DNA from: Ignavibacteria bacterium
Lineage (GTDB): Bacteria > Bacteroidota > Ignavibacteria > Ch128b
NCBI GenBank assembly: GCA_013177855.1
Contig: JABLYA010000007.1
Location: forward strand, 1-64,000
DNA length: 64,000 nt
Reading direction: 5' to 3'
The notes beneath the pieces are model-generated. The model searched no databases, was not told where the DNA came from, and worked only from the letters and a program-made list of their open reading frames with translations. This document shows, piece after piece, positions 3,542 through 63,504 of this stretch. Every line of letters begins with the position of its first letter. The stretch's first letter is position 1. The position numbers and the translations under genes are program-made.

Positions 3542-4812
3542 TATTTCAACATTTTTTGGAATGTTTTCCAATCTTCAAAATTTTTATTTATATCTAAATC
3601 TATAAAATCTTTATAATCGATTTTATCTAAGTCTACTAATTCGCTTAAATATTCAAGATATATTTTTGACGTTTCCTCATCTAATAAATGTACTATATCT
3701 GTTTTATTCAAAAGTTTTATCACTTCTTCAACACCAATCATATCATATATTTGTTGCCATATTTCTCTAGGACTTTTTTTATTTGTATCAATATTTAAAT
3801 TATATTTTTTAATATAAAAATTGGCATCTAAATTTATTGAAAGTATATCTACTACAATTTGTTTATTTATGCTATTTTCATTTTCTAAAAACATATCTGA
3901 GACAGCATTATAAATATCACTATCTCCCTCATTTATTATATAACATAATAAATCATTTACTTTTTTATTTTTAATTGCCCATTCTAAAGTTTCATCAAAA
4001 TTAGGATTAAAATTATCCCACATATTATCTAAACTATCACCGATATATGTATCTGGATCAATTCCATTTTTTTCTATTTTGTCTAAAACATCCAATATTT
4101 CTCTAATTGATGTTATATTGTATTTTTCACACCATTTTGAAAGTTCATGTTTAAAATCATCATAAGTACCATTATATATATGGTCATTATTGGCGTCCCA
4201 TATTGTTATTTCTAAAGGTGTTTCCTCATAATCATAACTATATATACTATTTATATTATCTATTTGAATTGCAAGATTTTTATAAGAATTTATTTTATTA
4301 ATACATTGAATGACACCACCATAAGAAGCTTTATATTCATCTCCGTAAAAGTATTGAGGTTCACGATTTATACACCAAGAATGGTCACCATATTTATAAG
4401 CGGTATCAAAATCTAAAGGTGAAAAAATTATATATTCTTCACCATTGTAATAAAGACCCAAAGACCATTCATTTTCTATATTATCATATTTTTTTGTGAT
4501 TATACTTTTAAGTGAGTCAAGTGTTTTTAGTTTTGTGATGTCTTTTATATGAAGTGTTTCTTTTTCTTTTTTGAAAAAGTCTAACTAATTCAAAAATAAA
4601 TTTCTCTAATTCAACTTTTTTATATTTATTATTATCTTTGTTATCAACATAATATTTTAACATTATTTCAAGCAAAACTGATCCAGCACCATCCATTTTT
4701 TAGCCATATTTGACAAAAAATAATTAAAAATTTCCTCTGGAACAACATCTTTATACTTTACTTTAAGATCATCTATTTTACCTTCAAATATATAATTTAG
4801 ATAATTCTTCAT
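3538..4812 (-). pseudogene. Protein with capsid-targeting-like N-terminus, split by two frameshifts
   Basis: ATG at 4812 gives MKNYLNYIFEGKIDDL. The frame is lost near 4690 (AAAAAATGG), continues in a second frame (SVLLEIMLKYYVDNKDNN), and shifts again at the A6 run near 4575 into the long frame ending at 3538. The fused protein would be ~420 residues. The first twelve residues resemble the T4 capsid-targeting peptide. A region around GDHSWCINREPQYFYGDEY is a conserved-looking WCI motif of unknown function. The gene is divergent from the NUDIX gene, which carries the same kind of N-terminus. The indels lie in homopolymers and may be sequencing errors. Confidence 0.6.
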
Positions 4813-4847
4813 AACATTTTATATATTAATTTTTACTATATATAAAA

Positions 4848-5352
4848 ATGAAATCATATAAGAAATTTATAGAAGGTATAGGTTCTGGTGATTACGCTAT
4901 ATTTACCAACACTGCAGGAGATTCGTTCTGGGGTGATGTAGGTGGTGGTGTTCTACCAATTTGTAAAAAAAAAAACAAAAAGAATCCTACTTAATTATCG
5001 TTCTAAATATGTTAATGAACCATATACTTGGGGCATCTATGGTGGTAAATTAGATTCTGATGAAGATATTATAAATACTGTAAAAAGAGAATTCCTAGAA
5101 GAAAGTGGTTACGATGGTCAAATAGATTTGATTCCCGCCTATGTTTTTAGAAGTGTTAATGGTACATTTGAATATCACAATTTTATAGGTGTTATAAATG
5201 ATGAATTTGAACCAGAATTGGATTGGGAATCAGAAGGATATAAATGGGTAACATTTGATGAATTATTGTCAATAAAGCCTAAACATTTTGGGTTAGAAGA
5301 ACTTTTAGCTGATAGTCAGAGTATACAAACAATAAAAAATATAATTAAATAA
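4848..5352 (+). CDS. NUDIX hydrolase with capsid-targeting-like N-terminus (frameshift in A11 run)
   Basis: ATG at 4848 gives MKSYKKFIEGIGSGDYAIF, then a glycine-rich strand (GDVGGGVLPICKK). At the A11 run (about 4964-4974) the frame shifts. The downstream frame carries the NUDIX box GGKLDSDEDIINTVKREFLE plus EESGYDG, a good match to GX5EX7REUXEEXGU. NUDIX enzymes hydrolyse nucleoside diphosphates linked to another group, such as ADP-ribose, NAD(H), capped RNA or oxidised dNTPs; the substrate here is unknown. The first ~10 residues fit the MK-x-Y-x-x-F-I-E pattern of T4 capsid-targeted proteins. The split may be a sequencing error. Confidence 0.75.
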
Positions 5353-5354
5353 AT

Positions 5355-5393
5355 ATGAAACATTTAAAAAATTGGAATGAAAAAATTAAGTGA
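5355..5393 (+). pseudogene. Remnant of a capsid-targeting N-terminus
   Basis: ATG at 5355, two bases after the NUDIX stop, encodes MKHLKNWNEKIK and a stop. This closely matches the first residues of the genes at 57012 and 58667. It is followed by a duplicated 18-bp unit (GAAAAATTAAGTGAAATA) around 5378-5416. Probably the stub of a lost gene. Confidence 0.45.
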
Positions 5394-5420
5394 AATAGAA
5401 AAATTAAGTGAAATAGAAAA

Positions 5421-6353
5421 TTAATATTTTTCTTTAAATATCTTTACAATATTTTCAAATTCAGATAATAATTCTTGATTATCTGATTTTTTTATTTTCT
5501 CTCTTATGATTTCTTCAATATTTAATGTATTATTATCAACAACCTCAACATTTTCAACATCATTTGTGTATGTTATAGATTTGAAATTATATTTTGAAAG
5601 CAACATATCAATTTTTATTTTCTTATCATCAATTAATGATTTATCAATTACAATATTAACAAAATTCTTATTTACAAAATCCACATCAATATCATCTATT
5701 TGAGATATATCGGTTATTGTTATAGTATTATAAATCGGTGAATAGTTGTTTTTAATAAATTTATACTTTTTTGTTTCTATATCAACAACATAGAAACCTT
5801 TATCTGATGAAGTTTTATCAAATTGATATGGTGCGCCAACGTGTATAACATTTGCATCTTCTTTTCTATCATCAGAATAACCGCATAAAAATAAAATATC
5901 TGGGAATTTTTTTAATAATTCTGTATCGATTCTATTATTAATAAATACTATTCTATCATTACTTGTAATATGTTCTAATGGATTTTTATTAGGTATGAAT
6001 TTAACACCATATAATTCTTCGACATTATTTATATTATAAACAAAAAATGGTGCTAGACCGTTTATAAATAGTTTTGAAACACCATTTTTTTCATTATATC
6101 CATCAATTAAATAAACTGGTGTAACATAAGACATTCGTATAAATAACTCACGAACTGTTAATAATGTTGATATATTAACAGTTTCAGTTGTGTTTAAAAT
6201 GTTTCCTAGGTGAATTATTTTATCGCCAGGTTTGGCGTTCTTTTTTAGAAATGGTATAAATTGATTATCAAAATAATCAACCATATTTTTTAACCATTCT
6301 TTTGAATTGTTTTTATAACCAAATTTGGTGTTATTTATTACCCATAATTTCAT
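5421..6353 (-). CDS. Catalytically degenerate Mre11/SbcD (T4 gp47)-like phosphoesterase
   Basis: 310 residues with the layout of the gp47/SbcD metallophosphoesterase family. It has an N-terminal strand, a GDKIIHLGNILN segment where active members have GDxxD, and a VYLIDGYNEKN segment where they have GNHD. An FLCGYSDDRK segment stands where GHxH is expected, followed by a cap-like HVGAPYQFD and GFYVVDIETKKYKFIKNN, typical of gp47. Every metal-binding motif is substituted (D-x-H is NNT). The protein probably keeps the fold and perhaps the gp46/Rad50 interaction but not nuclease activity. C-terminal ~90 residues are helical. Family call moderate. Confidence 0.6.
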   Translation of the reverse strand: MKLWVINNTKFGYKNNSKEWLKNMVDYFDNQFIPFLKKNAKPGDKIIHLGNILNTTETVNISTLLTVRELFIRMSYVTPVYLIDGYNEKNGVSKLFINGLAPFFVYNINNVEELYGVKFIPNKNPLEHITSNDRIVFINNRIDTELLKKFPDILFLCGYSDDRKEDANVIHVGAPYQFDKTSSDKGFYVVDIETKKYKFIKNNYSPIYNTITITDISQIDDIDVDFVNKNFVNIVIDKSLIDDKKIKIDMLLSKYNFKSITYTNDVENVEVVDNNTLNIEEIIREKIKKSDNQELLSEFENIVKIFKEKY

Positions 6354-6370
6354 ATGAATTATAGGTATAA

Positions 6371-7168
6371 TTAGATTGGAAGTTTTATATTTTGTAAAAC
6401 ATTGGTAGAAATTTGTGTATAGATTTCGGTTGTTTTTATATTATTGTGTCCAGCTAATTTTTGAATGATTCTACAATCTGTTCCATTTTCAATTAAGTGT
6501 GTAAAACACGAATGTCTTAGAGTATGAAAATGATAGTCTTTTCCTAAGTATTCTTTCACAATTTTATTACAAGAATTAGATGAATATTGTGATGAATTCT
6601 GACCATTAAACAAATATTCTTTGGGTTTATATTCTAACCAATATTTTCTTAATAATTCTAGAACATTTTGAGAAAGTGGAACAATTCTATCTTTTCTTCC
6701 CTTTCCATTTTTAATATGTATAATCATTCTTTTAGAATCAATATCCTCAATTTTAAGATTAATAACTTCAGAAACTCTTAATCCAACTGAATATCCTAAT
6801 GAGATAATTGCTTTATGTTTTAAATTTTTAATTTCATTTATTCGTTTGATTAAAAACTCTTTATCAATAATCTGTGGTAAATGTTTTTCTTTACGTGGTC
6901 TTTCAAATAATACTTTATCGTATTTTTTATCTAGAATTTTCTCATATAAAAATTTAATTGCATTTATTATCTGATTTTGTTGTGATATTGATGAAAATTT
7001 ATATGAATCTAAATAAGATTGAAAATCTTTTGAAACAATATGTTGAGGATATTTTTTTGTTGATATTAGAAATTTATGAATGTAATGAAGATAAATTTTT
7101 CGTGTACATTCAGAATAATTAAGATTTTTAAACTTTAGTTCGGCAATCTTTAAAATTTTATCATACAT
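6371..7168 (-). CDS. Tyrosine recombinase (XerC/D-like integrase)
   Basis: 265 residues. N-terminal SAM-like core-binding domain (residues ~1-90), then a catalytic domain with Arg in GLRVSEVINL, Lys in NGKGRKDRIVPL, HTLRHSCFTHL (H-x-x-R), GHNNIKTTEIY (H and the nucleophilic Tyr). All five catalytic positions are present. There is no extra ~20-residue insertion before HxxR of the kind that marks integron IntI. It catalyses site-specific DNA strand exchange, with possible roles in integration, resolution or shuffling. Its 5' end faces the array of tiny genes and repeated modules at 7.2-9 kb, transcribed in the same direction. Confidence 0.9.
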   Translation of the reverse strand: MYDKILKIAELKFKNLNYSECTRKIYLHYIHKFLISTKKYPQHIVSKDFQSYLDSYKFSSISQQNQIINAIKFLYEKILDKKYDKVLFERPRKEKHLPQIIDKEFLIKRINEIKNLKHKAIISLGYSVGLRVSEVINLKIEDIDSKRMIIHIKNGKGRKDRIVPLSQNVLELLRKYWLEYKPKEYLFNGQNSSQYSSNSCNKIVKEYLGKDYHFHTLRHSCFTHLIENGTDCRIIQKLAGHNNIKTTEIYTQISTNVLQNIKLPI

Positions 7169-7228
7169 TTAATTGAACATTAAATAGTTAGAATTGAGTG
7201 TTTATATATAATAGTTATAAACAATAAA

Positions 7229-7405
7229 TTAAAATTGTTTACGTTTCCACTTTTTACGAGTTTTTTTAATCCATTTATCAAAAGATTTTGCTTTATTCTC
7301 ATCAATGTTTTCTGGTTCTACCATGTGTCCTGCTGTTGCTTTATTTGCTGCATCAAATAATTTATCAGCAAAATCTTTTACGTCTTTGTCTGTAAAGTTT
7401 TCCAT
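7229..7405 (-). CDS. Small basic-tailed protein (58 aa)
   Basis: ATG at 7405, stop at 7229. It begins MENFTDKDVKDFADKLFDAA and ends with a basic KKTRKKWKRKQF tail. The start lies ~25 bp downstream of a TATATTTG promoter-like box read on the minus strand (inside 7421-7546), which supports it. Function unknown; the acidic helix plus basic tail could suit a nucleic-acid-binding or DNA-mimic protein, but this is a guess. Confidence 0.7.
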   Translation of the reverse strand: MENFTDKDVKDFADKLFDAANKATAGHMVEPENIDENKAKSFDKWIKKTRKKWKRKQF

Positions 7406-7420
7406 AATTTTAATTTACAT

Positions 7421-7546
7421 GTTTATAACAACAAATATAAAACATTGCTGTCGTGTTTCTATTTATATTATACGTTATTTTTTTAAATTTGTTTCATTTA
7501 ATTTACTTCAGTGCTGCAACGTTTTATATTTGCGACCGTTATAACC
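7421..7546. repeat. Intergenic module copy 1 with imperfect terminal inverted repeats
   Basis: ~125 bp. The left end (TTATAACAACAAATATAAAA) and the right end (GTTTTATATTTG...GTTATAA) are imperfect inverted repeats of about 25 bp. Nearly the same sequence recurs at 7739-7861, and a diverged version at 8021-8146. Each end holds an outward-facing TATATTTG box matching the Bacteroidota -7 consensus TAnnTTTG. The left end would drive the gene at 7405. Confidence 0.75.
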
Positions 7547-7559
7547 AATAAAATGAAAA

Positions 7560-7721
7560 TCACTCTGCATCTTTATAAACATAAATATCTTTCTTAAATA
7601 ATCCACCTTTTATAATCTCTTTTTTAAGAATACCAAATTCAACATAAGTATTAAGCACACCAATAAGAAAGATATTCCTTTGTGTGTATTTTAATTTTAC
7701 TGTTCCCATAAAGTTTTTCAT
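7560..7721 (-). CDS. Small hypothetical protein (53 aa)
   Basis: ATG at 7721, TGA at 7560-7562. Sequence starts MKNFMGTVKLKYTQRNIFLI and has a central hydrophobic strand followed by KKEIIKGGLFKKDIYVYK. Probably a small beta-rich protein. It is downstream of a TATATTTG box in the module at 7739-7861 at the same spacing as its neighbour. Function unknown. Confidence 0.65.
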   Translation of the reverse strand: MKNFMGTVKLKYTQRNIFLIGVLNTYVEFGILKKEIIKGGLFKKDIYVYKDAE

Positions 7722-7738
7722 ATATTTTCATTTAAAAG

Positions 7739-7861
7739 TTTATAACAACAAATATAAAACATTGCTGTCGTGTTTCTATTTATATTATACGTTAATTTTT
7801 AAATTTTGTTCTATTAATTATCATTAGTGTTGCAACGTTTCATATTTGCAGTCGTTATAAG
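7739..7861. repeat. Intergenic module copy 2
   Basis: ~80-90% identical by eye to 7421-7546, including the same core (ATTGCTGTCGTGTTTCTATT) and both imperfect inverted ends. It separates the 53-aa gene from the tRNA-like RNA. Repetition of the whole module between unrelated genes suggests duplication by recombination or a mobile-cassette boundary. Confidence 0.75.
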
Positions 7862-7864
7862 TAA

Positions 7865-8018
7865 TGTTTTGGGAGCGTGGACTCGAACCACTTTCGCAAT
7901 CCAGCGTTACGCCTAAACAATTGGAATCGAACCAATTCTACGTTAACCAAACTTTAATCAGGAATCGAACCTGAACGTCTCAGGGAGCTACCCTTGCCAC
8001 CTTGGAACTCCCAAAACA
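7865..8018 (-). ncRNA. RNA with three tRNA T-arm-like hairpins closed by an 11-bp stem
   Basis: The ends TGTTTTGGGAG (7865-7875) and CTCCCAAAACA (8008-8018) are perfectly complementary. On the minus strand the interior holds three T-arm-like hairpins, each with a 7-nt TTCGAKT-type loop: TCAGG-TTCGATT-CCTGA, AATTGG-TTCGATT-CCAATT and GTGG-TTCGAGT-CCAC. A fourth small hairpin is AGGG-TAGCT-CCCT. Complete D and anticodon arms are not visible, and the units are ~40 nt, too short for tRNAs. A TATATTTG promoter box in the 8021-8146 module ends a few bases upstream of the minus-strand 5' end. It is either a novel structured RNA mimicking tRNA T-arms or a collapsed tRNA cluster. Confidence 0.55.
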
Positions 8019-8020
8019 CA

Positions 8021-8146
8021 TACTTATAACAACAAATATAAAACATTTTATTCTTATTTCAAAATAAAATTTATAGTAATTGTTAAGTTTATTATTTCAA
8101 TTTAAGTTCTGTGTTAAAACGTTTTATATTTGCAATTGTTATAAAC
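8021..8146. repeat. Intergenic module copy 3 (diverged)
   Basis: It has the same terminal sequences as copies 1 and 2 (TTATAACAACAAATATAAAA at left, AACGTTTTATATTTGC near right) around a different core. The left end provides a minus-strand promoter-like box for the T-arm RNA. Further diverged spacers lie at about 8300-8408, 8640-8693 and 8874-8990. Confidence 0.6.
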
Positions 8147-8148
8147 AA

Positions 8149-8292
8149 TTAATTTTTAAATAACCTATTGAAAAAATTCACCCATGATTCTGGAAAATAT
8201 GTATAACAATTTTTGATATATTCATCATAATCCTTCTGCGGTTTTTGAATTTTTTCAATCATTTCTTTTAAAGGTATATTTTCTATTTCCAT
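8149..8292 (-). CDS. Small hypothetical protein (47 aa)
   Basis: ATG at 8292, TAA at 8149. It begins MEIENIPLKEMIEKIQKPQK and ends SWVNFFNRLFKN. Amphipathic helices are likely. The upstream ATAAACAGTTAATTTT matches the leader of the next gene (8873), supporting the start. Function unknown. Confidence 0.65.
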   Translation of the reverse strand: MEIENIPLKEMIEKIQKPQKDYDEYIKNCYTYFPESWVNFFNRLFKN

Positions 8293-8299
8293 AAAATTA

Positions 8300-8408
8300 A
8301 CTGTTTATAACAAGGTATATGTGAAATACCTCATAAGGTTTTTACTAATTATTTAAGTTTGTCGTTAGGTACTTCTACCAAAAAACGTTGTATATTTGCA
8401 ATCGTTAG
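8300..8408. repeat. Diverged intergenic module with hairpin and GTTAGGT
   Basis: It contains a hairpin AGGTAT/ATACCT near 8316-8334, GTTAGGT at about 8362, and the shared right end ACGTTGTATATTTGCAATCG. GTTAGGT fits the GTTRRRY core of integron attC sites, and a similar GTTAGGC occurs near 8951. The match is short and could be chance. Confidence 0.4.
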
Positions 8409-8629
8409 TTGTCATTTTCTTTAATTATCTTAATAGCATCATCTATAAGTTCATCCATTTTACCCAAGTAAGTGTCCATTCCCCATACATCACCTTTACT
8501 ATCTTCATAAGCACTAAGTTCTATTATCTTCCTTAATGTTTCTCGTGATAGAAAACGACAACTAACATCAGATATATGTAATTTTTTATCTGTGTTATCA
8601 AATTCTGTGTCTTTATTTACTTCTTCCAT
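8405..8629 (-). CDS. Acidic small protein (74 aa)
   Basis: Begins MEEVNKDTEFDNTDKKLHIS. A central CRFLSRETLRKIIEL helix is followed by YEDSKGDVWGMDTYLGKMDE. Charged and soluble, no known motif. Third or fourth member of the small-gene array, same strand as the recombinase. Confidence 0.65.
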   Translation of the reverse strand: MEEVNKDTEFDNTDKKLHISDVSCRFLSRETLRKIIELSAYEDSKGDVWGMDTYLGKMDELIDDAIKIIKENDN

Positions 8630-8693
8630 ATTATTTAAGTTTGGGTTTCAATTTAAGAAAAAACTACATATATCTGAGTATCGTTATGTGCCA

Positions 8694-8873: not shown

Positions 8874-8888
8874 AGTTTTAAAATTAAC

Positions 8889-8919
8889 GGCATATAACAT
8901 GGTATATATGTTATATGCC
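8889..8919. promoter_or_regulatory. Perfect 12-bp inverted repeat (possible operator or cassette palindrome)
   Basis: GGCATATAACAT and ATGTTATATGCC are perfect inverted repeats separated by 7 bp, in the leader of the 8694-8873 gene. Dyad symmetry of this quality suits a dimeric repressor site or a folded recombination site. It is one of several GTTATAT/ATATAAC-containing spacers in the array. Confidence 0.45.
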
Positions 8920-43930: not shown

Positions 43931-44587
43931 GTGAAAACATTAAAGAATTATAACACTTTTATTTTTGAAAATGCTATTGAAATGCAAGAAATTTTCAATG
44001 ATGCTGATATTTTAGAATCTATCGTAACAGATTCTGATGAACTATTAAATACAATAAAAGCAAAAGAAGTTGACCTATTTCAAGTTTTTGAACTAAATCC
44101 AGATAAGTTGAAATCAAATTTCACAATTCAAGAATTATATGATAATAAATACTTTAATAAAGCACTTGTAAAAAAAGGATTTAAAAAGAATGAATTAGAA
44201 TCAACCGAAGAAACAGAAACTTTTTTGGATGATTCTATTGTTATTAAATTTTTCTCTATTTTCAAAAATAATGCTTCCGAATTAGAACAACCAGAATATA
44301 TTATCTACCAAAGTAAGAAAAGAAACCAAAAAGATTGGGGTCAGGTTAAATGTTATAAAGTTAATGATAATATGAAAAATTTTTATGATAAATTAACTAA
44401 TAAATCTATTGAAATTAAAAAAGGAGATAAAACATATATTTATGTTACAAGTAATTCAGGAAATGATTGGCAGTTACAAAAAAGTATGAAAAATCAACAA
44501 ACAGATAGATTTAAGGAATATATGACTAATGATGATATTAAAGCAATTCTATTAGACGATGATGTATCAATAACAATATTGGCTTAA
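43931..44587 (+). CDS. Capsid-targeting-like N-terminus on an unknown protein (218 aa)
   Basis: GTG start at 43931 gives MKTLKNYNTFIFENAIEMQE, one of the best matches to the T4-type capsid-targeting pattern (hydrophobic/aromatic at 7-11 and E at 13). The body is acidic alpha/beta with YIIYQSKKRNQKDWGQVKCY and ends AILLDDDVSITILA. No enzyme motif. Upstream box TTTTATATATAATG. Terminator follows. Confidence 0.65.
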   Translation: MKTLKNYNTFIFENAIEMQEIFNDADILESIVTDSDELLNTIKAKEVDLFQVFELNPDKLKSNFTIQELYDNKYFNKALVKKGFKKNELESTEETETFLDDSIVIKFFSIFKNNASELEQPEYIIYQSKKRNQKDWGQVKCYKVNDNMKNFYDKLTNKSIEIKKGDKTYIYVTSNSGNDWQLQKSMKNQQTDRFKEYMTNDDIKAILLDDDVSITILA

Positions 44588-45132: not shown

Positions 45133-45579
45133 TTATTTTTCATTTTTCATATACCTATCTATATCACGCTTTTTGATAGTTTCTCTCTTATCGTAATCTT
45201 TCTTACCACGAGCCAAACCAATATCAAATTTAACTAATCCTTTATCTGTCGTATATATTCTTAATGGTACTATTGTATATCCTTTCTCAGTAACCTTTTC
45301 AGAAAGTTTCTTCAGTTCTCTTTTAGTCATAAGCAACTTTCTTTCTCTCAATGGTTCATGATTATTATATGTTCCATTCTCATATTCAGCAATATGAAAA
45401 TTTTTCAAATATAATTCTCCATTAACAAAATAACAATATGAATCATTGAAACTTATATTACCATTTCTAATAGATTTAATCTCAGTACCTTGTAACACCA
45501 CTCCAGCAATATAATTATCAAGTATTTCAAATTTGAAATACGCTTTCTTATTCTTAATATTTATATTATTGTTATTCAT
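45133..45579 (-). CDS. smpB: SsrA-binding protein SmpB
   Basis: 148 residues, near normal length. It has NKKAYFKFEILDNYIAGVVL, GTEIKSIRNGNISFNDSYC, LYLKNFHIAEYENG, NHEPLRERKLLMTKRELKKL and the C-terminal RGKKDYDKRETIKKRDIDRY tail. These are the full set of SmpB motifs, including the tail that enters the mRNA channel. SmpB binds tmRNA in ribosome rescue. It overlaps the bS21 gene by 8 bp. No tmRNA was seen in the window. A phage SmpB might boost or reprogram rescue during infection. Confidence 0.95.
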   Translation of the reverse strand: MNNNNINIKNKKAYFKFEILDNYIAGVVLQGTEIKSIRNGNISFNDSYCYFVNGELYLKNFHIAEYENGTYNNHEPLRERKLLMTKRELKKLSEKVTEKGYTIVPLRIYTTDKGLVKFDIGLARGKKDYDKRETIKKRDIDRYMKNEK

Positions 45580-51288: not shown

Positions 51289-52041
51289 ATGAAAATAAAT
51301 TACAGAAAAATGATTCATAATTATAATACTTTCAAACGTCTTAACGAAGCAAAAAACAATTTTAATCATCTAATAGATTACACATATCTTAAAAAGAATG
51401 CGACAGTAGATGATATTAAGAAAATATGTGAAGAAGCAATAGAAAACCATTTCTATTCAGTTTGCATATATCCAGAAATGGTTGGTACTGCTAAAGCATT
51501 TCTTGAAAACGAAGACCCAATTGTTTGTACTGTAATATCTTTTCCTAATGGTGATGATTCAACTAATTACAAAGTTAAAGAAACACTTAAAGCAATATCT
51601 AATGGTGCAGATGAGATTGATATGGTTTTTAATTATAAAAAACTTAGAAAACTTGCCATATTAGAAGGTGAAGATTATGAATCAGTTTATAATGAATTGG
51701 TAACGGATGTTAGACAAGTTGCTCATAGTTGTCATAAAAATGGTGTTATTCTGAAAGTTATTATTGAAGTAGAAGAAATAAATTATAATGAAATAAAATT
51801 GGCTTGTGAGATATGTGTTGAAGCTGGTGCTGATTATATTCAAACATCAACAGGATTTTCAAAAATTAATAAATTTTTTTCTGAAAAAGTAGAACAATTA
51901 AAATATATGAGAAAGATTCTACCAGAATATATAAAAATTAAAGTATCTGGTGGTGTTAGAAATAAAGAACAAGTTGATATGGTTTTACCTTATGTTGATA
52001 GAATTGGAACATCTGTCATTATAAATGATATTAAAAATTAA
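51289..52041 (+). CDS. deoC: Deoxyribose-phosphate aldolase with N-terminal capsid-targeting-like leader
   Basis: Catalytic domain from residue ~27: LIDYTYLKKNATVDDIKKIC, VCIYPEMVGTAKAFLE, VISFPNGDDSTNYKVKE, ADEIDMVFNY, VILKVIIEVEEINYNE (with an active Lys), QTSTGFS and IKVSGGVRNKEQ (Schiff-base Lys). It cleaves 2-deoxyribose-5-phosphate. The first 26 residues (MKINYRKMIHNYNTFKRLNE) are extra relative to DeoC and fit the capsid-targeting style (YNTF...NE). If packaged, it would be injected to help scavenge deoxynucleosides. Confidence 0.9.
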   Translation: MKINYRKMIHNYNTFKRLNEAKNNFNHLIDYTYLKKNATVDDIKKICEEAIENHFYSVCIYPEMVGTAKAFLENEDPIVCTVISFPNGDDSTNYKVKETLKAISNGADEIDMVFNYKKLRKLAILEGEDYESVYNELVTDVRQVAHSCHKNGVILKVIIEVEEINYNEIKLACEICVEAGADYIQTSTGFSKINKFFSEKVEQLKYMRKILPEYIKIKVSGGVRNKEQVDMVLPYVDRIGTSVIINDIKN

Positions 52042-52614: not shown

Positions 52615-52950
52615 ATGAAAAATAATAAACACGTAGAAAGTTTCGAAGAGTTCAATGAAAAGTTAAATATATTTGGAAAGAAAAAAGAATCTAATATAAA
52701 TTTAGGTGATAGTAAATTAAAGAATTTTGGTTTAGATGAATTTATAAAACAATTCATTAGAGGATTAGATAATCCTATAATAATGAGTATGTTTTATAGA
52801 ATGTTAGATACAAATTCATTTACTAAATTTGGTCAAAAAATATTTACATTCACGGATGAGGAAAAAGAAAAATTAGAAAAAATTAAACCATTACTGGATG
52901 ATTTAGTTAATACTGTTTCAAAAATTAAAAATATACAGAATGGTGTGTAA
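52615..52950 (+). CDS. Capsid-targeting-like N-terminus on small protein (111 aa)
   Basis: MKNNKHVESFEEFNEKLNIF: ESFEEFNEKL fits the capsid-targeting pattern slightly displaced. The body is helical (FIKQFIRGLDNPIIMSMFYR) and ends INDDLVNTVSKIKNIQ-like coiled coil. Upstream TTTTAATATATATATA box. Unknown function. Confidence 0.6.
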   Translation: MKNNKHVESFEEFNEKLNIFGKKKESNINLGDSKLKNFGLDEFIKQFIRGLDNPIIMSMFYRMLDTNSFTKFGQKIFTFTDEEKEKLEKIKPLLDDLVNTVSKIKNIQNGV

Positions 52951-57011: not shown

Positions 57012-57866
57012 ATGAAAACATTAAAAAATTGGAAACAATTTAATGAAGAAAACATATACGGAGCTGGTTGGACAACTACAACAAGTAATGTATCAAAAAA
57101 ACCAGAACAAGTTAATCAACCTGTTGAAACACAATCACAACCAAAAATTAAAAAGACTGATGATTTCTACATTACCTATTTCAGAGTACCAGTCGCAATT
57201 GAAAAAAACGTAGATGAAAGTATTTTCTATAAAAATGAAGATCCAAAAGAAATAGCCAAAATACTTGATAAAGAAGGTATTGACGGTTGGTGGTTTGTTG
57301 AAGATTATGAAAGATGGAAAAAATATGCACAACCACAAGAATTAGGTGAAAAACCAAAAAGAGAAGATTTTGATGACGAAGATGATTACTTAGAAGAATT
57401 GGAAGATTGGTATGATGAATATAATAATTGGCAACCTTCAATAGATGCTTATGTTAAAGATAATTTTTATGATTGGGAACAATTTATTAATCAATTTAAA
57501 ATATATGGTAGTGTTGTAGAAAATACAACTCAACTTGAAAGAATTCAAATTTTTGATGTATTAAAAGATGATTTTAATGATTCTGATATAGTTCAATATT
57601 TTGATGAAGCAAAATCTCTTGGTATTGTTAGTATGGAAGTTATTGGTGTAGATTTTGATGATGAAAGCAGATTTACAATCGAGGTAAAATCTACAAAACC
57701 ATTAACAGACGATGATAAAAATAAAGTTAAAGAATATATTGAAGGTCAATGTTCTGATGGTTGGGGAGAAAGTCTTGAACAACAAGAAATTGAAGGGTAT
57801 TATGTTCATACCTGGTGGGATCACAAAACAATTAATGCACCAGATTATGAAATATTAGTAGATTAA
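57012..57866 (+). CDS. Capsid-targeting-like N-terminus on acidic protein (284 aa)
   Basis: MKTLKNWKQFNEENIYGAGW is the clearest capsid-targeting-like leader (F-N-E-E cut-like site at 10-13). The body is very acidic (EDFDDEDDYLEELEDWYDEY) with later beta segments (FTIEVKSTKPL) and WGESLEQQEIEGYYVHTWWD. The upstream ~45 bp closely match those of the gene at 58667. Function unknown. Terminator follows. Confidence 0.65.
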   Translation: MKTLKNWKQFNEENIYGAGWTTTTSNVSKKPEQVNQPVETQSQPKIKKTDDFYITYFRVPVAIEKNVDESIFYKNEDPKEIAKILDKEGIDGWWFVEDYERWKKYAQPQELGEKPKREDFDDEDDYLEELEDWYDEYNNWQPSIDAYVKDNFYDWEQFINQFKIYGSVVENTTQLERIQIFDVLKDDFNDSDIVQYFDEAKSLGIVSMEVIGVDFDDESRFTIEVKSTKPLTDDDKNKVKEYIEGQCSDGWGESLEQQEIEGYYVHTWWDHKTINAPDYEILVD

Positions 57867-57884
57867 TCAATAAAAAAAAATAAA

Positions 57885-57969: not shown

Positions 57970-58491
57970 ATGAAGAAACAAAATACTATTCCAGGAAATT
58001 TTTTCATTACAAAAGGTTCAGGTTGTGATGAGTATGAGATTCATGCTGGTGCAATGCACATGGCTATGTGGGATGCAGGTATTGCAGACTACAATTTAAT
58101 GACTTACACATCTGTTTTACCACCAACAAGCGAATTGGTTAAATTAGATGATATTGAGTTACCACCACCTGGATCAGAATTAAAAACTATTTCTGCTATA
58201 GCTACAGGTAGATATTCTGAATTTATATCGGCTGGGTTGGTATTTGCTTGGTTATATACTAATGATAGTATGGAAGAAAAATATATGGGTTTAGTTTGTG
58301 AAGTTGCTGGTCACTATAGATTAGAAGATTTAGAACAAAAACTAAGAGATGTGGTACAAAATTTATACGAAAAAACATATAAGACAAAAGGTTATGTATT
58401 AGGTGAGCCTGAAATATTTATGGAAGGTCTTAAAATAACTGATACTTACGGTTGTGCTATGGTTTGTCTTTGTTTCGTAGATTTTGATTAA
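57970..58491 (+). CDS. Pyruvoyl-dependent arginine decarboxylase-like (PvlArgDC)
   Basis: 173 residues. PGNFFITKGSGCDEYEIHAG, AMWDAGIADYNLMTYTSVLPP, GSELKTISAIATGRYSEFIS, AGLVFAWL and the C-terminal VLGEPEIFMEGLKITDTYGC match the PvlArgDC fold. TYTSVLPP is the self-cleavage site; the Ser would become the pyruvoyl group. It decarboxylates arginine to agmatine, leading to polyamines that could neutralise packaged DNA. No capsid-targeting leader. Start preceded by ATATATATAATG box. Confidence 0.8.
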   Translation: MKKQNTIPGNFFITKGSGCDEYEIHAGAMHMAMWDAGIADYNLMTYTSVLPPTSELVKLDDIELPPPGSELKTISAIATGRYSEFISAGLVFAWLYTNDSMEEKYMGLVCEVAGHYRLEDLEQKLRDVVQNLYEKTYKTKGYVLGEPEIFMEGLKITDTYGCAMVCLCFVDFD

Positions 58492-58503
58492 AAGTGCAAT
58501 ATA

Positions 58504-58536
58504 TTAAAAAAGTGCATTTTTAATGCACTTTTTTAA
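58504..58536 (+). terminator. Terminator hairpin
   Basis: AAAAAGTGCATT/AATGCACTTTTTT, 13 bp after the arginine decarboxylase stop. Confidence 0.85.
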
Positions 58537-58540
58537 TTGT

Positions 58541-58620
58541 CATTTATTATTTCTTCAATCTTTTCAAATTTATCGACATATTTTTTTAATATATCACTGT
58601 GATAAGATTTACTACTTTAA
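58541..58620 (-). pseudogene. Small minus-strand C-terminal fragment
   Basis: SKSYHSDILKKYVDKFEKIE then EIINDN in an open frame with an upstream stop and no ATG. Likely a relic. Confidence 0.3.
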
Positions 58621-58666
58621 AAAATGTTTAAAAAATAATATATATTATAAAAATAATTTATAAACT

Positions 58667-59355
58667 ATGAAAATATTGAAAAATTGGAAACGATTTAATA
58701 AAAATTCTATTAGATGGAAAAAAACACACTGGTAGGCTCACCAAAAATAGTTGAAGGCAATTTTGATTGTTCTGATAATAAATTAACATCATTAGAAGGT
58801 GCTCCAGAAATAGTTAAAGGTAATTTTGATTGTTCTTATAATCAATTAACTTCATTAGAAGGTGCACCAAAAAAGGTTAAAGGCAATTTTAATTGTTATT
58901 ATAATAAATTAACTTCATTAGAAGGTGCTCCAGAAAAGGTTGAAGGTTATTTTAATTGTTTTTCTAATAAATTAACTTCATTAAAAGGTGCACCAAAAAT
59001 AGTTGAAGGTTATTTTAATTGTTCTGATAATAAATTAATTTCGTTGGAAGGTGCTCCAAAAATGGTTGAAGGTGATTTTAATTGTTCTTTTAATCAATTA
59101 ACTTCATTGGAAGGTGCACCAGAAATATTTAAAGGTAGTTTTTATTGTTCTTATAATAACTTAATTTCATTAAAAGGTGCACCAAAAAAAGTTGAAGGTA
59201 ATTTTAATTGTTCTTATAATAAATTAATTTCATTAAAATATGCTCCAGAAATAGTTGAAGGTGATTTTATTTGTTATGATAATAATTTAACAGAAAAAGA
59301 TATAGAATGGTTAAAACAAAATTCTAAAATAAAGGGAAAAATTATATGGAAATAA
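58667..59355 (+). CDS. Leucine-rich-repeat protein with capsid-targeting-like leader (frameshift)
   Basis: ATG at 58667 reads MKILKNWKRFNKNSIRWKK and then shifts in an A7 run (about 58718) into NTLVGSPKIVEGNFDCSDNK. The remainder has ~9 repeats of 20 residues (GNFDCSYNQLTSLEGAPKK type). The LRR belongs to a phage class of unknown binding partner. The leader matches that of 57012. Ends DIEWLKQNSKIKGKI. Confidence 0.75.
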
Positions 59356-59358
59356 AAT

Positions 59359-59430
59359 ATGAAAAATTATAACAATTTCATATTAGAAAAAATCATTCGA
59401 AAAGAAAACATAGATCCATATACTTTTTGA
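59359..59430 (+). pseudogene. Capsid-targeting-like leader remnant
   Basis: ATG at 59359: MKNYNNFILEKIIRKENIDP, stop after YTF. It matches the leader pattern (YNNFILE) but the cargo is lost. Confidence 0.4.
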
Positions 59431-59551
59431 TTTTCATAATTGAAATCTTTAGTTCCGTGTCAAGTAACGATTCAAAAGAATCAGAAAAGATATAAATAAA
59501 AAACTTATTATTTAATCTTTTTTCTATTATTCTATTTAATCTGTTTTTGTT

Positions 59552-59935
59552 TTAATTTTGGTTATCTTTTTCTTTTAGTTCTTCATCAAGTAAATATCTA
59601 TGATCCTTTGGTAGGATATCAAATCCTATTTGTTTACCTAAAATTATTAATAGTAATGTTAATGGAACAGTAAAAGGAATTCCTTGAATTGCTATAATTG
59701 GTAATACTTTTACGAGGTCTACTGATTGTTTTTTAAGAAAAAGTTTTTCATTATCAAAAACATTTTCACTACGAATAAGTTTGACTAATATTTGATAAGC
59801 AATCTTTGTTTCTTCTCCTTCTACTTTAACAACATTCCAAACATTTTTAGATAAAGTTTTACCTTTATTCAATAAATGTTTGACTTTCATAAGAGTAGAT
59901 TCATTAATACCGCTTATATTTTCTTCATCTAACAT
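59552..59935 (-). CDS. LETM1-like domain protein (127 aa)
   Basis: KVEGEETKIAYQILVKLIRS, then VKVLPIIAIQGIPFTVPLTL, LIILGKQIGFDILPKDHRYL. The pattern (PG....PL...lgkklgfdiLP..HR) matches bacterial LETM1-like proteins. Membrane-associated (one hydrophobic hairpin). Downstream of it a frame reads KNRLNRIIEKRLNN, a possible RxKLxRI relative. Confidence 0.6.
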   Translation of the reverse strand: MLDEENISGINESTLMKVKHLLNKGKTLSKNVWNVVKVEGEETKIAYQILVKLIRSENVFDNEKLFLKKQSVDLVKVLPIIAIQGIPFTVPLTLLLIILGKQIGFDILPKDHRYLLDEELKEKDNQN

Positions 59936-60098
59936 TTCAATATTTTTTTTTTCATATTATATAAAAAAAATAATATCTATCCTATCAACTTTACTATATA
60001 TGTTTATATTAAAAATTTTCATATTTGTTTTTTATTATATATTAAAACTAAAATTCTTTTTTAATCTATATAAAGAAATTAAAAATTAATTGATATGA

Positions 60099-61232
60099 AT
60101 GAAAGTAAATTTAATTTTAGATTCCTCATACATTCTTTATAAAAATGTATTTATCCTTAAAAAACTACACAGAATCAAGCAAGACCTTGCTGATTTGCTA
60201 ATGAATGATTTCAACAAACTTACAAAATCTTTTGCATTTGATAACATATATTTTGTTTCTGACTCCAAACAAGGTAATTGGAGAAAACTCATATATAAAG
60301 AATATAAAGGTAACAGAAAAAGAGATGATAGTATAGATTGGGATTTTGTATATCAAGTTTTTGAAGAATTTAAAGAAAAAATTCGCAATAAAAAGAATAT
60401 AAAATCATTAGAACTAGTTGGATTAGAAGGAGATGATTTTATTGGATATATTGTAAGAAAAAGTAATGAGAAAGGTTATTCTAATGTAATACTTGGCTCT
60501 GATAGAGACCTTAATCAATTAATTAAATATGATTTAAATAAAAAATTTATAAACATTCAATGGAATTATAAATTTTCTGATGAAAGAATTTATTTACCAG
60601 AGAATTATCAATTGGTCATAGAAGAATTATCAAATTCTGTGAATGAAAATATATTTGAATTAGACAATAGTTCTGATTTTGTAAAATACATTGATAATTT
60701 AATTAATAAAACCAAAACAAAAACAGTTGTTGCTGAAGAAATAATGTTTTGTAAAATTCTTGAAGGTGATAATGCTGATAATATACCTTCTGTTATACAA
60801 ATAAAAGATGGTAAGGTAGATGAAAATGGTAGGGGTATAGGTAGAGATGGTGCTGCAACAATTTATAAATTGTACAAAGAAATACATCCAAAACCAATAG
60901 ATATAGATTCAGATGAATTTGTAGAAAATTTATCAGATATTATTATTTATCACAAAAAGATAAAAGACATTACTGCTAAGGATATAATAAAGAAAAACAT
61001 TATATTTAATCGTAAATTGGTGATATTAGACCCAAAATATATGCCACAAGTAACATATGAAAATATGAAAAACTTTTTTAATGAAGTTGATAATCGTGTA
61101 ATTAAATATGAACCTGAAGATTTGGAAGCAAAATTAGAAGAAGATAATTTCTTTGAAGAAAAAATACCAAAACAATTTAATTTAGAATCAGATGGTGAAG
61201 TATTTAATCCTGATTCTTTCTGGGAATTATAA
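60099..61232 (+). CDS. rnh: T4 RNase H-like 5'-3' exonuclease (FEN1/XPG family)
   Basis: 377 residues. LILDSSYILYKNVF (first metal Asp), KEYKGNRKRDDSIDWDFVYQ, LVGLEGDDFIGYIVRK (EGDD) and VILGSDRDLNQLI (SDRD) are the family's acidic clusters. LEGDNADNIPSV is the helix-hairpin-helix region. It removes RNA primers and 5' flaps. Slightly longer than T4 RNase H (305). Start ATG at 60099 follows a TTGATATGA context. Confidence 0.85.
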   Translation: MKVNLILDSSYILYKNVFILKKLHRIKQDLADLLMNDFNKLTKSFAFDNIYFVSDSKQGNWRKLIYKEYKGNRKRDDSIDWDFVYQVFEEFKEKIRNKKNIKSLELVGLEGDDFIGYIVRKSNEKGYSNVILGSDRDLNQLIKYDLNKKFINIQWNYKFSDERIYLPENYQLVIEELSNSVNENIFELDNSSDFVKYIDNLINKTKTKTVVAEEIMFCKILEGDNADNIPSVIQIKDGKVDENGRGIGRDGAATIYKLYKEIHPKPIDIDSDEFVENLSDIIIYHKKIKDITAKDIIKKNIIFNRKLVILDPKYMPQVTYENMKNFFNEVDNRVIKYEPEDLEAKLEEDNFFEEKIPKQFNLESDGEVFNPDSFWEL

Positions 61233-61234
61233 TT

Positions 61235-61390
61235 ATGAAAGAAAAATCATTAGAAGATAGAAAAGTAAAAGAATATATCATTATATACTACAAAAAACTT
61301 CTTGATGCTGCGATAAAAAGAGAAGATTATGAGAGTGCCATTAAATATAAAAAATGGATTGAAAATCTCGAAAAAAGTGGTAAAAAGTGA
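61235..61390 (+). CDS. Small helical protein (51 aa)
   Basis: MKEKSLEDRKVKEYIIIYYK, LDAAIKREDYESAIKYKKWI, ENLEKSGKK. The KREDYESAIKYKK stretch resembles a UVR (UvrB/C) interaction motif. It starts 3 bp after the RNase H stop and ends in a terminator, so likely co-expressed and related to DNA metabolism. Confidence 0.65.
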   Translation: MKEKSLEDRKVKEYIIIYYKKLLDAAIKREDYESAIKYKKWIENLEKSGKK

Positions 61391-61408
61391 TACACCACTT
61401 TTTTATTG
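61372..61408 (+). terminator. Terminator hairpin after RNase H unit
   Basis: AAAAGTGGT/ACCACTTTT with T-run. The TGA of the 51-aa gene lies in the loop region. Confidence 0.75.
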
Positions 61409-61460
61409 TCTGTAATTAATATATAAACTATAAATTGTTAAAAAATAAAAATTAGAAGTA

Positions 61461-62147
61461 ATGAAAGGATTATTTAAGCCTAAGAATTTATACGTATTTA
61501 ATGAAGACACACTAACTTATGAGAGTATTAAAAAAAAAAGAAAATTTGGATTATTTTTATTTATATTTTTATTCTTTGTCTTTGGTATGATTATCGGACA
61601 TTTTGTTGAAATGAAATATAAATATTTAAAAAACGACATAGACTATAAGACAAAATATGACCTTATAATAGGTACGACAGAATGGAAAGATTCTGTTTTC
61701 ACAGAATATGAAAAACAAGCAAATCTTTATTTATCACAAAAAGAATTTAAAAATACACCTATAAAAGGATCTATGCTGGCACTTGCTGCAAGAAACGCAT
61801 ATGATTCAACAAGTATAATAGTACCACTTGAGTTAGCATTAGCACAAGCACAATGGGAATCAGATATGGGTCGTAAAGGTCGTTCACCAATAAACAACCC
61901 ATTTAATGTTGGTGAATGGGAAACAGGAACAGTATTATTTTTTGAATCTACATTTGAAGGAATACAAGCATATTATTACCTAATGTGTAAAAATTATCTG
62001 AAATGTAAATCACTTAAAGAATTATTTAAAAATTTTACAAATTGTTCTGGTAATAGATATGCCACAAGTAATTATGAAAGTATTATTAGTACTGAATATT
62101 ATAAAATAAAAGGATGGTTGGAATCAAATTATAAAACTGAGAATTAG
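61461..62147 (+). CDS. Membrane-anchored peptidoglycan glucosaminidase (228 aa)
   Basis: Residues ~28-50 form a membrane anchor (FGLFLFIFLFFVFGMIIGHF). The catalytic domain contains PLELALAQAQWESDMGRKGR (Glu acid), SPINNPFNVGEWETGTVLFF, GIQAYYYLMCKNYL and NRYATSNYESII, typical of the Bax/mannosyl-glycoprotein endo-beta-N-acetylglucosaminidase family. It cleaves peptidoglycan glycan chains. An anchor points to an N-in signal-arrest-like lysin or an envelope enzyme. Confidence 0.85.
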   Translation: MKGLFKPKNLYVFNEDTLTYESIKKKRKFGLFLFIFLFFVFGMIIGHFVEMKYKYLKNDIDYKTKYDLIIGTTEWKDSVFTEYEKQANLYLSQKEFKNTPIKGSMLALAARNAYDSTSIIVPLELALAQAQWESDMGRKGRSPINNPFNVGEWETGTVLFFESTFEGIQAYYYLMCKNYLKCKSLKELFKNFTNCSGNRYATSNYESIISTEYYKIKGWLESNYKTEN

Positions 62148-62151
62148 ATTG

Positions 62152-62592
62152 ATGAAAATGATTAAAAAATTTGAAAAATTTTTAAAAGAAAATTACGAAA
62201 TAATATTTGAGAAAGGTGTATTGATTGCACCTGATTTAACTTACGAAATTTTGCCAGTAAGTGCAACGAAATTATCTTTAGAAAATTTTTTTAAAAATGT
62301 ATTTTCAGGTAGTTTAACTACTGAAAAACCATTTATTAAAGATAAAGATGGTTATGTTGAAATGGTTGGAATAGGTATCAATAATCCTAATTTAAGAGGT
62401 ATTGGGTTAGGAGAAAAAATGATTACTTTAATGTTAGAATATTTAAAAAAACAAGGTGTAGTAGGTATAAAATCGATCAATAATAGTAGTTATGCAGATA
62501 TAAAAGGAAGAACGAAATCGGCAGAAAAAATGTGGGAAAGGTTGCGAAAAAATAAAAAATTTATTGTATCTAAAAAAAAATATGGATTATAA
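62152..62592 (+). CDS. GNAT acetyltransferase-like protein with capsid-targeting-like leader
   Basis: ATG at 62152 (MKMIKKFEKFLKENYEIIFE). The leader fits K-x-F-x-x-F-L-x-E. Then VEMVGIGINNPNLRGIGLGE plus KMITLMLEYLKKQGV is the acetyl-CoA-binding R/Q-G-x-G-L-G signature. GNAT enzymes acetylate amines, including Lys of proteins. If packaged, it could modify a host target early. Starts 4 bp after the glucosaminidase stop. Confidence 0.65.
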   Translation: MKMIKKFEKFLKENYEIIFEKGVLIAPDLTYEILPVSATKLSLENFFKNVFSGSLTTEKPFIKDKDGYVEMVGIGINNPNLRGIGLGEKMITLMLEYLKKQGVVGIKSINNSSYADIKGRTKSAEKMWERLRKNKKFIVSKKKYGL

Positions 62593-62647
62593 AATCAAAC
62601 TTGCTAACGGCACCAAATTATAAAACTGATAATTAATATATAGTTTT

Positions 62648-63214
62648 ATGATTACTAAATTCAAACTATATGAATCTATAAATGAATGGTTATCAAAAAA
62701 AGGTAAATTCATAGGTAAAGGTGGATTTGGCGAAGTTTTTGAGATCGTAGGACATCCTAATCTAGTGTTAAAAATCACAACAGACCAATCAGAATATGAA
62801 ACTGCAAGAAGATTGATTGGTAAAAATACCGAATACATAGTTAATTATTATGAAGCTGAACCTTATCAGAAAGGTTCTTTTTTATTAATTATGGATAAAA
62901 TCAATACAAAATTACCTCAGAATCTAAATAATATATTAGACGAATTGAATATTTATTGTTATGATTATGATGAAAATTTCTATTATAAAACATTATTTGA
63001 TGCAGAAGAAATAGAATTTGTAATTGAAGATTATACTGAAGAGTATCCTGAAAAAGATGTAAAGTATGTTATTGAACAATTACAAGAGATTGTAAAAGAA
63101 TGTAAAGAAAATGATATTGATACCAACGATTTTCATTCAAAAAATATAGGTCAAAGGAACGGACACCTCATATTTTTTGATGTTGGTGCACAAAAATTAA
63201 ATATCAAACAATGA
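62648..63214 (+). CDS. Protein-kinase-like protein with capsid-targeting-like leader (188 aa)
   Basis: MITKFKLYESINEWLSKKGK followed by FIGKGGFGEVFEIVG (Gly loop), LVLKITTD (Lys), LLIMDKINTKL (hinge), DTNDFHSKNIGQRN (catalytic-loop-like, His-x-x-x-Asn) and LIFFDVGAQ (DFG-like Asp). The fold is abridged, and catalytic Asp is uncertain (DFHSKN). T4-like phages inject related kinases? That is inference; the leader suggests packaging. ATGA overlap with the next gene. Confidence 0.6.
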   Translation: MITKFKLYESINEWLSKKGKFIGKGGFGEVFEIVGHPNLVLKITTDQSEYETARRLIGKNTEYIVNYYEAEPYQKGSFLLIMDKINTKLPQNLNNILDELNIYCYDYDENFYYKTLFDAEEIEFVIEDYTEEYPEKDVKYVIEQLQEIVKECKENDIDTNDFHSKNIGQRNGHLIFFDVGAQKLNIKQ

Positions 63215-63504
63215 TAACTAAATTTAACGAATTTAATGAGGGTCTTTTCTCAAAAAAACATTATGAAGATGATGATATAGGTTTAAAAATGCTTACATAT
63301 TTAAACAAAAATGATTTTACATTATCAAATACTATCAAATCAGATGGATATTGTTATGAATTGATAAAAAAATTTGACTACAGAACTAAAAATGCCAAAA
63401 CAACTCATTCTAAAATGAAAATCAATTTGATGTTTGATTATAAATTCTTATATTGCGAACATTTTCGCAATGAATATTTTCGCAATTACTATGGAGACAA
63501 ATAA
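63211..63504 (+). CDS. Capsid-targeting-like N-terminus on small protein (97 aa)
   Basis: MITKFNEFNEGLFSKKHYED: leader F-N-E-F-N-E. ATG overlaps the kinase-like stop. The body has CYELIKKFDYRTKNAKTTHS. Ends YCEHFRNEYFRNYYGDK, where the DNA has a direct repeat (GAACATTTTCGCAATGAATATTTTCGCAAT). Probably truncated at the end by rearrangement. Confidence 0.55.
   Translation: MITKFNEFNEGLFSKKHYEDDDIGLKMLTYLNKNDFTLSNTIKSDGYCYELIKKFDYRTKNAKTTHSKMKINLMFDYKFLYCEHFRNEYFRNYYGDK

Follow-up and report, generated by a model that had tools for sequence, protein, structure and literature searches.

The window analysed here, the first 64,000 bases of the 147-kb contig JABLYA010000007.1 (C7) from a 3.66-Mb assembly of 10 contigs binned as an Ignavibacteria bacterium, is part of a Mahaphage-like huge phage that is spread over at least five contigs with a total of 521 kb. 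Many genes of this phage begin with the same type of short leader, which precedes mature proteins that are unrelated to each other. The leader is real and lies far above chance expectation, and we consider it probable that it is a capsid targeting sequence (CTS) of the type known from phage T4, carried by cargo that would be packed into the head, cut and injected. A CTS-tagged cohort is known in kind from T4; its scale and the phages using it are apparently new: each of four huge phages, one of them with a genome of 735 kb, has tens to about 200 tagged proteins.

The Phage and Its Relatives

The contigs C5, C6, C7, C8 and C9 (98, 213, 147, 47 and 16 kb; 25–28% GC) are most simply read as one incomplete huge phage binned together with the bacterium, because T4 homologues occur once each and are spread over all five contigs: 19 of 49 T4 query proteins have a homologue there, and gp23, the T4 portal and the S77 prohead protease each have a single match in the bin, on C5 in all three cases. 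A Terminase_6C search of the bin gave no match, and a gp17 homologue was found by phmmer. Two leader-bearing DeoC genes, one on C5 and one on C7, are the only hint against a single phage that was followed up. The best tblastn matches of the capsid protein are LR756501 and LR756503 (63% identity), LR745206 (53%), LR756502 (52%) and LR756504 (49%), with LR756500 (33%) and the Lak phages (28–29%) further out. From these capsid identities, membership of the Mahaphage clade is a tentative assignment; Al-Shayeb et al. 2020 assigned their largest genomes, along with Lak, to this clade (PMC7162821). In the following, LR756501 (735 kb), LR756502, LR745206, LR756504 and LR756500 are called W01 to W05, respectively, and nine 20-kb stretches of contig C1 (2.65 Mb) together with one of C2 serve as the bacterial sample.

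Leader Frequency and Controls

A strict pattern, K.[FYW]..F[IN].?E near the start of an open reading frame (ORF), occurs at 12 of the 632 ORF starts of this phage, compared with a mean of 0.25 and a maximum of 3 in 500 shuffles, and is found in none of 8470 internal windows and none of the 181 ORFs of the bacterial sample. The same pattern is enriched in W01 (13 of 1020 ORFs; 0.29 expected) and W02 (13 of 975; 0.21 expected), and a position matrix trained on the respective other two genomes yielded 46, 71 and 90 matches at a score of 8, where 9–12 were expected. For the main counts we used a held-out profile, which was trained on the other genomes at 10% expected false calls and tested on the left-out genome, with the expectation taken from internal Met starts; ORFs shorter than 45 residues and ORFs without an ATG start were left out. 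This profile called 101 of 632 ORFs in this phage (16.6 expected), 147 of 1020 in W01 (11.7), 207 of 975 in W02 (6.3) and 52 of 464 in W05 (9.4; 360 of 462 kb), with little or no excess in the controls, namely the bacterial sample (1 of 181; 0.9 expected), Tenacibaculum phage PTm1 (5 of 306; 3.1) and phage Lak-B1 (16 of 495; 11.0; 400 of 548 kb). A reading of the window from its sequence alone had proposed a large arsenal of tagged proteins instead of the handful known from T4, and had suggested looking for the same leader in the rest of the genome: both the number of calls and the diversity of the cargo agree with the former, and the leader is present on all five phage contigs (21 of 106 ORFs on C5, 38 of 248 on C6, 24 of 206 on C7, 14 of 53 on C8 and 4 of 19 on C9). 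Contigs of the bin outside the phage set gave 1 call among 21 ORFs (C3, first 20 kb) and 1 among 53 (C4); the latter contig (54.8 kb) looks phage-like by eye and has one ORF of 5861 residues.

Counting gapped patterns without any model led to the same leader, which tops the N-terminal patterns of this phage (MK.LK, MKYL, MK....YE) and also leads those of W01, W02 and W05; in PTm1 nothing passed, the bacterial sample showed weak unrelated patterns only, and Lak-B1 showed a different pattern. Among IMG/VR sequences, with repeated contigs included, the exact word MIKKYxxFINE was found in 21 stretches, 18 of them at an ORF start, and MKNYxxFIxE in 70, 47 of them at an ORF start; by eye, an IPII relative in a 162-kb contig is among the latter.

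Leader genes also share an upstream motif. TAATATA or TATATA[CG]T is present in the 50 upstream bases of 191 of 507 leader genes (101 of 207 in W02, 43 of 147 in W01, 39 of 101 in this phage and 8 of 52 in W05), compared with 1 of 58 replication homologues, 7 of 22 structural homologues and 12–17% of other long ORFs. Since the motif was discovered in W01 and W02, this phage is a fair test, and here the enrichment holds (39 of 101 leader genes vs 67 of 511 others, p = 1e-8). We read the motif as a putative late promoter shared with head genes.

Likeness to the T4 Capsid Targeting Sequence

In T4 IPIII, ten N-terminal residues are enough for head entry; the main determinants of targeting within the CTS are residues 4 and 7, those of processing residues 8 and 10, and it has already been proposed that such a sequence enables T4-like phages to package a variety of proteins (PMC9026906). 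IPII and IPIII start with MKTYQEFIAE and IPI with MKTFKEF. Alignments of the matrix-picked cohorts read MxxKxYxxFxNE in W01 and MKxxKxYxxFxxE in W02, which is the spacing of the T4 CTS, and the model-free patterns of W01 (Y..F.NE, FINE) show this spacing as well. Among 73 nine-residue leaders that were picked with the aromatic residues and Glu held constant, 56 have I, L or V at position 8, which had been left free; longer forms fit the N-terminal 10–19 residues with an aromatic residue at 4 and 7, a hydrophobic one at 8 and Glu at 10. Overall, the Glu could be placed in 234 of 507 leaders, at residues 5–18, with S, A and N enriched at the next residue, and the endings vary (FINE, FNE, FIxE, IFE).

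A blind comparison with T4 points in the same direction: a profile derived from W01, W02 and this phage, and free of T4 sequences, ranks gp61.1, IPIII, IPII and IPI as numbers 1–4 among 226 mechanically called T4 ORFs (148 of 169 kb), seven of which reach the threshold. The T4-type identity that the sequence-only reading had assigned to the leader is supported. Alt, whose N-terminus differs, is not among the T4 ORFs that reach the threshold. The top-ranking gp61.1 (L177:18966–19130, 54 residues, annotated as hypothetical) begins with MKTFKEFIKED and outscores the known internal proteins; it should, as a prediction for T4, be a virion protein.

With the T4 internal proteins, the huge-phage cohort shares the N-terminal place and the length of the leader, the spacing of aromatic residues and Glu, a varied cargo and an encoded S77 protease. 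It differs from them in that tens to about 200 proteins are tagged instead of a few, endings are mostly FINE, FNE or IFE, recognisable cargo is mostly enzymatic, and protease and scaffold appear to be fused. T4 Alt is likewise an enzyme that is carried in the head and delivered with the DNA (PMC9026906), but this injected ADP-ribosyltransferase starts with MELITELFDED, and no ADP-ribosyltransferase was confirmed among the leader proteins. Giant phages of the phiKZ/SPN3US type also pack and eject many head proteins, and a gp21 relative cleaves these behind a Glu (PMC5694885, PMC9026906, PMC13282480); their propeptides, however, are mostly much longer than the T4 CTS, exceeding 100 residues in several head proteins of the phiKZ type (PMC5694885), and do not form one common ten-residue leader, whereas the Glu lies at residues 5–18 in those 234 leaders of our set where it could be placed. 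PTm1 resembles the huge phages in having one ORF annotated as prohead core scaffolding protein and protease, but lacks a clear leader cohort. In Lak-B1 (L157–L176), a different peptide, E-x-LFD[DE], occurs in the first 50 residues of 10 of 495 ORFs and in none of 1585 internal windows; it resembles MELITELFDED, and Lak phages may use an Alt-like tag.

Protease, Scaffold and Putative Capsid Cleavage Sites

A gp21-like protease, which the sequence-only reading had proposed to look for in the rest of the genome, is represented by an S77 prohead protease match at C5:60939–61280, which lies above the Pfam cut-off and is the only one in the bin; S77 matches were also obtained in six of six relatives, two of them above the cut-off. 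The corresponding ORF (C5:60054–61379) continues, over an apparent frame break, into a scaffold-like ORF (58877–60115), and in W01–W04 protease and scaffold form a single open frame. These protease-scaffold proteins contain 11–14 sites of the type [YF]xx[YF][ILV]xE in W01–W04 and 13 in this phage, the majority within repeats close to IAYSEYIAE-NLDKN. The likeness of these repeats to the leader is a hint at a docking or cutting motif that may be common to leader and core. The protease gp21 cuts after L/I-x-E in T4 (PMC9026906), and near this rule the capsid proteins carry, about 40–60 residues into their N-terminal region, the putative sites [LMI]NE/N in this phage and W01–W03, IHE/N in W04 and LYE/N in W05.

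Cargo and Distribution of the Leader

Of the cargo labels that had been read from the window by eye, NUDIX and deoxyribose-phosphate aldolase (DeoC) stand, as two of ten window proteins match these families above the Pfam cut-offs. The LRR and GNAT matches remain below the cut-offs. The GNAT label is not supported, and neither are those of kinase and ADP-ribosyltransferase, families that were absent at E values up to 0.05 from the ten window proteins scanned. On the other contigs of this phage, four of ten proteins lie above the cut-off (a second DeoC, HD_4, AAA and DUF5856), to which PPK2 is added; the latter is leader-bearing in all three phages examined (this phage, W01 and W02), the form of this phage (MAIEKNFKVFTINES) being weak. 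Cargo of W02 comprises NUDIX, T4 RNA ligase 1 and a 2H phosphoesterase with an Acb1 match just over the cut-off (28.4 vs 27), methyltransferases occur in other phages, and leader cargo from IMG/VR adds a second 2H/Acb1 protein (27.9), a zeta-toxin-like kinase, NUDIX and DUF2201; DHH matches were below the cut-off. Excluded from these Pfam cohort scans were three of the 89 members of W02, which span a 20-kb border, as well as a single member of at least 1000 residues from W01 and another from W02. Among the PHROGs matches listed (25 of 40 for W02, 23 of 23 for W01) there was no internal virion protein. An isochorismatase-like reading of C7:112971 and its relatives, made by eye, was abandoned: no Pfam family was matched, and C7:112971 had no sequence match in the PDB.

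Which proteins lack the leader is equally informative. Its presence on proteins with clear non-virion roles such as DNA polymerase had been named as evidence that would contradict a head address, yet T4-homologous core proteins were called in only 4 of 84 cases vs 503 of 3007 other ORFs (p = 0.0016). Three of these four calls are apparently spurious (a W05 terminase fragment, W05 UvsX and W02 gp4) and only RNA ligase 1 of W02 looks genuine, while no leader was called by the profile on the phmmer-found homologues of DNA polymerase, helicase, primase, clamp loader, topoisomerase, single-stranded-DNA-binding protein, portal, capsid and sheath. As RNA ligase 1 bears the leader in W02 and lacks it in this phage and W01, the leader appears to be a detachable module. 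Leader genes are, moreover, less conserved between genomes than others (19 of 84 vs 150 of 372 here; odds ratio 0.37–0.43 in three genomes). Where reciprocal best pairs exist, orthologues of leader proteins nevertheless bear a leader, with changed letters, far more often than expected by chance (15 of 28 vs 28 of 399 pairs); without three tail-sheath pairs, which are false calls, 12 of 25 remain (p = 2e-7).

Proposed Route of the Cargo and Alternative Explanations

By analogy with T4, we infer packaging, docking, cleavage, retention, injection and an effector role as successive parts of one route. At a late stage of infection, cargo proteins would attach to the core of the prohead through their leader, K-x-[FYW]-x-x-F-[I/N]-x-E or one of its shorter variants. 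This core probably has the fused protease-scaffold protein as its base, and the tandem repeats of that protein (near IAYSEYIAE-NLDKN) are similar to the leader. Next, the S77 prohead protease would cleave behind the Glu, and the leader would be lost. The mature cargo, retained in the head, would be delivered to the next host along with the DNA. There, part of it may act before phage gene expression on defence, nucleotide pools, RNA or host regulation, as do IPI, IPIII and Alt in the T4 analogy: IPI acts as an inhibitor of a restriction system, and for one E. coli strain T4 requires IPIII in the cytoplasm of the host (PMC9391042), and an effector role is therefore likely for part of the cargo.

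Several observations weigh against this assignment. We found no virion proteomics for these phages, and of the 101 calls in this phage some 17 should be false positives. Proteins that look wrongly called are also present in the earlier matrix cohorts (tail sheath and, judged by eye, PrkA, a D12 methylase and a PolB-type exonuclease); the profile cohort contains none of these four. Lak-B1 and PTm1 (capsid identity 28–29%) are without the leader. Short variants such as MKHLKKFNES and MKYLKKYNES have F or Y where T4 has L or I before x-E, and hydrophobic-x-E[SANGDQKE] occurs in residues 5–20 of only 49 of the 101 leaders of this phage, compared with 65 of 531 in the rest. A matrix built solely from the scaffold repeats gave 12 matches in W01 (1.4 expected), 4 in this phage (1.6) and 3 in W02 (1.9); being unclear outside W01, it was dropped as an independent leader detector and indicates that leader and repeat are similar, not the same. 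Finally, the upstream motif, which was chosen on W01 and W02 data, is not enriched in W05 (8 of 52 vs 36 of 307).

Among the alternatives, a chance product of AT-rich codon use, which would enrich K, N, F and E, has a practically negligible probability: the GC content of 25–28% and a loose pattern with 36 matches vs 14 expected are in its favour, but the shuffles, internal windows, internal Met starts and the bacterial and other-phage controls refute it. A dispersed DNA cassette of promoter and start codons, copied by recombination and yielding a peptide without function, could account for the stubs and near-copies at 5355, 59359, C5:20695 and C8:5938, for the two copies at C5:4287 and 4430, and for the upstream motif that accompanies the leader. 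However, orthologues retain the leader while its letters change, and identical seven-residue starts in W02 are spelled with different codons (4 of 5, 4 of 4 and 4 of 4 spellings distinct) behind differing upstream DNA, so that selection seems to act on the peptide; we hold the cassette to be very improbable. Scarcely less unlikely is another intracellular address unrelated to the head, for example a replication compartment or a host complex: the diversity of the proteins is in its favour, as any compartment could be served by a short N-terminal address, but replication homologues are nearly all without the leader, the profile finds the T4 internal proteins blind, and the upstream motif is common to leader genes and some head genes.

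A further explanation accepts the leader as a capsid-targeting and cleavage tag but places the work of most cargo inside the head, in core filling, head size or DNA condensation. It can draw on the assembly phenotype of T4 IPIII (PMC9026906), on a median length of leader proteins close to that of other proteins, and on the scarcity of family matches: at an E value of 0.001, 29 Pfam families were matched among 70 W01 members and 35 among 86 W02 members, several often on one protein. Against it stand the mostly enzymatic nature of the recognisable cargo (PPK2, DeoC, NUDIX, HD, 2H phosphoesterase, RNA ligase and methyltransferases) and the low conservation of leader genes, which is unlike that of assembly proteins, and we regard a predominantly in-head role as possible but doubtful.

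If the leader is a CTS on injected cargo, it provides a simple sequence rule to predict which of the hundreds of uncharacterised huge-phage proteins ride in the virion, and the tagged cargo would explain in part the purpose of the large genomes and offer new counter-defence candidates; Tad1 is, according to a review, the only anti-defence protein so far described in jumbo phages (PMC13282480). A more far-reaching view, which we consider evenly poised between right and wrong, is that particles of the largest known phages serve to deliver proteins as much as DNA: about a tenth to a fifth of the genes of the clade would encode CTS-tagged cargo, including the polyphosphate kinase PPK2, enzymes acting on nucleotides or RNA, and 2H phosphoesterases of the Acb1-like type, as a counter-defence and metabolic toolkit that acts before phage transcription and that new cargo joins by gaining a ten-residue tag. 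Our literature search, which mostly did not extend to subscription journals so that an earlier mention is possible, found no work joining huge phages with the capsid targeting sequence and, for jumbo phages, only work on SPN3US.

Leader Genes of the Window

The twelve leaders named or implied by the sequence-only reading were all recovered from the sequence: eight given explicitly, two stubs, and those of the DeoC (51289) and kinase-like (62648) genes. The held-out profile makes ten calls within the window, eight of which are on that earlier list and two of which (23503 and 44641) look doubtful; the gene at 43931, the broken gene at 58667 and both stubs fall outside this count.

Three leader genes look broken by indels, with leader and cargo in different frames. 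On the minus strand, MKNYLNYIFE/G heads a 49-residue ORF (4663–4812) that appears to continue in another frame after an indel near 4700. The leader MKSYKKFIEG occupies the first frame (4848–4994, plus strand, as are all leader genes that follow) of a gene whose second frame (4942–5352) encodes the NUDIX domain (E = 1.1e-12), with a run of 11 A at 4965; MKILKNWKRFNKN at 58667 is followed, over a run of 7 A, by an LRR-like repeat ORF in another frame (58714–59355; whole gene 58667–59355). The breaks near 4700, 4965 and 58720 lie close to A or T runs and, judged from the assembled sequence, are probably long-read assembly errors.

The stubs are MKHLKNWNEKIK (12 codons, 5355–5393) and MKNYNNFILEKIIRKENIDPYTF (23 codons, 59359–59430). 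Near-identical copies of the latter, MKNYNNFI[LI]EKIIRKENID, occur at C5:20695 and C8:5938, all three stubs having LRR-like genes nearby by eye, and a longer ORF at C6:98305 shares the first eight residues; these stubs may be debris of gene duplication.

At 43931–44587, a 218-residue protein begins with VKTLKNYNTFIFE/NA at a GTG start, and is absent from the counts because of this non-ATG start. The start is supported by relatives: orthologues in two huge phages and seven IMG/VR loci are also leader-first, the seven having been obtained with an alignment as query (leader at the start in 7 of 7, 6 of them distinct), while the 43931 and 57012 proteins as single queries against viral contigs gave no confirmed relatives. 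In its predicted structure (mean predicted local distance difference test score, pLDDT, 71.6), residues 1–30 have a pLDDT below 50 and the cargo behind them is mostly folded. No identity, as ADP-ribosyltransferase or otherwise, could be assigned, the best PDB match having an E value of 0.015 and a template modelling score of 0.13.

The DeoC/LacD aldolase (51289–52041; Pfam DeoC, E = 3.9e-16) carries a longer leader variant, MKINYRKMIHNYNTFKRLNEA, read as MKINYRKMIHNYNTFKRLNE/A. Further leaders are MKNNKHVESFEEFNE on a 111-residue protein (52615–52950), MKTLKNWKQFNE/EN on a 284-residue protein (57012–57866; held-out profile score 18.3), MKMIKKFEKFLKE/N on a 146-residue protein (62152–62592; score 19.1) with the GNAT match below the cut-off, MITKFKLYESINE on a 188-residue protein (62648–63214; score 10.1) that is kinase-like only by eye, and MITKFNEFNE/G on a 97-residue protein (63211–63504; score 14.4).

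Other Shared Peptides and Genes

In LR756501 (W01, L048–L084), 91 of 1020 ORFs contain the hexapeptide DPYGEE, in most cases with xW after it, at a total of 106 sites; 33 of these ORFs are leader-bearing (p = 3e-8), and the hexapeptide is absent from six other sets. Conservation is lower at its third codon positions than elsewhere in the codons, so that selection seems to act on it as a peptide. A second N-terminal cohort is formed in the window by five minus-strand proteins (20395, 25670, 26346, 27738 and 36882) that have the start MK[IV]RxGFVSNSSSSSF in common and differ in their remainders; a sixth is encoded on another contig of this phage, and the six other sets contain none. By eye, the window further encodes an SmpB-like protein of trans-translation (45133–45579, minus strand) as well as proteins resembling GMP reductase/IMPDH (29180), endonuclease IV (35383) and NAD ligase (38120).

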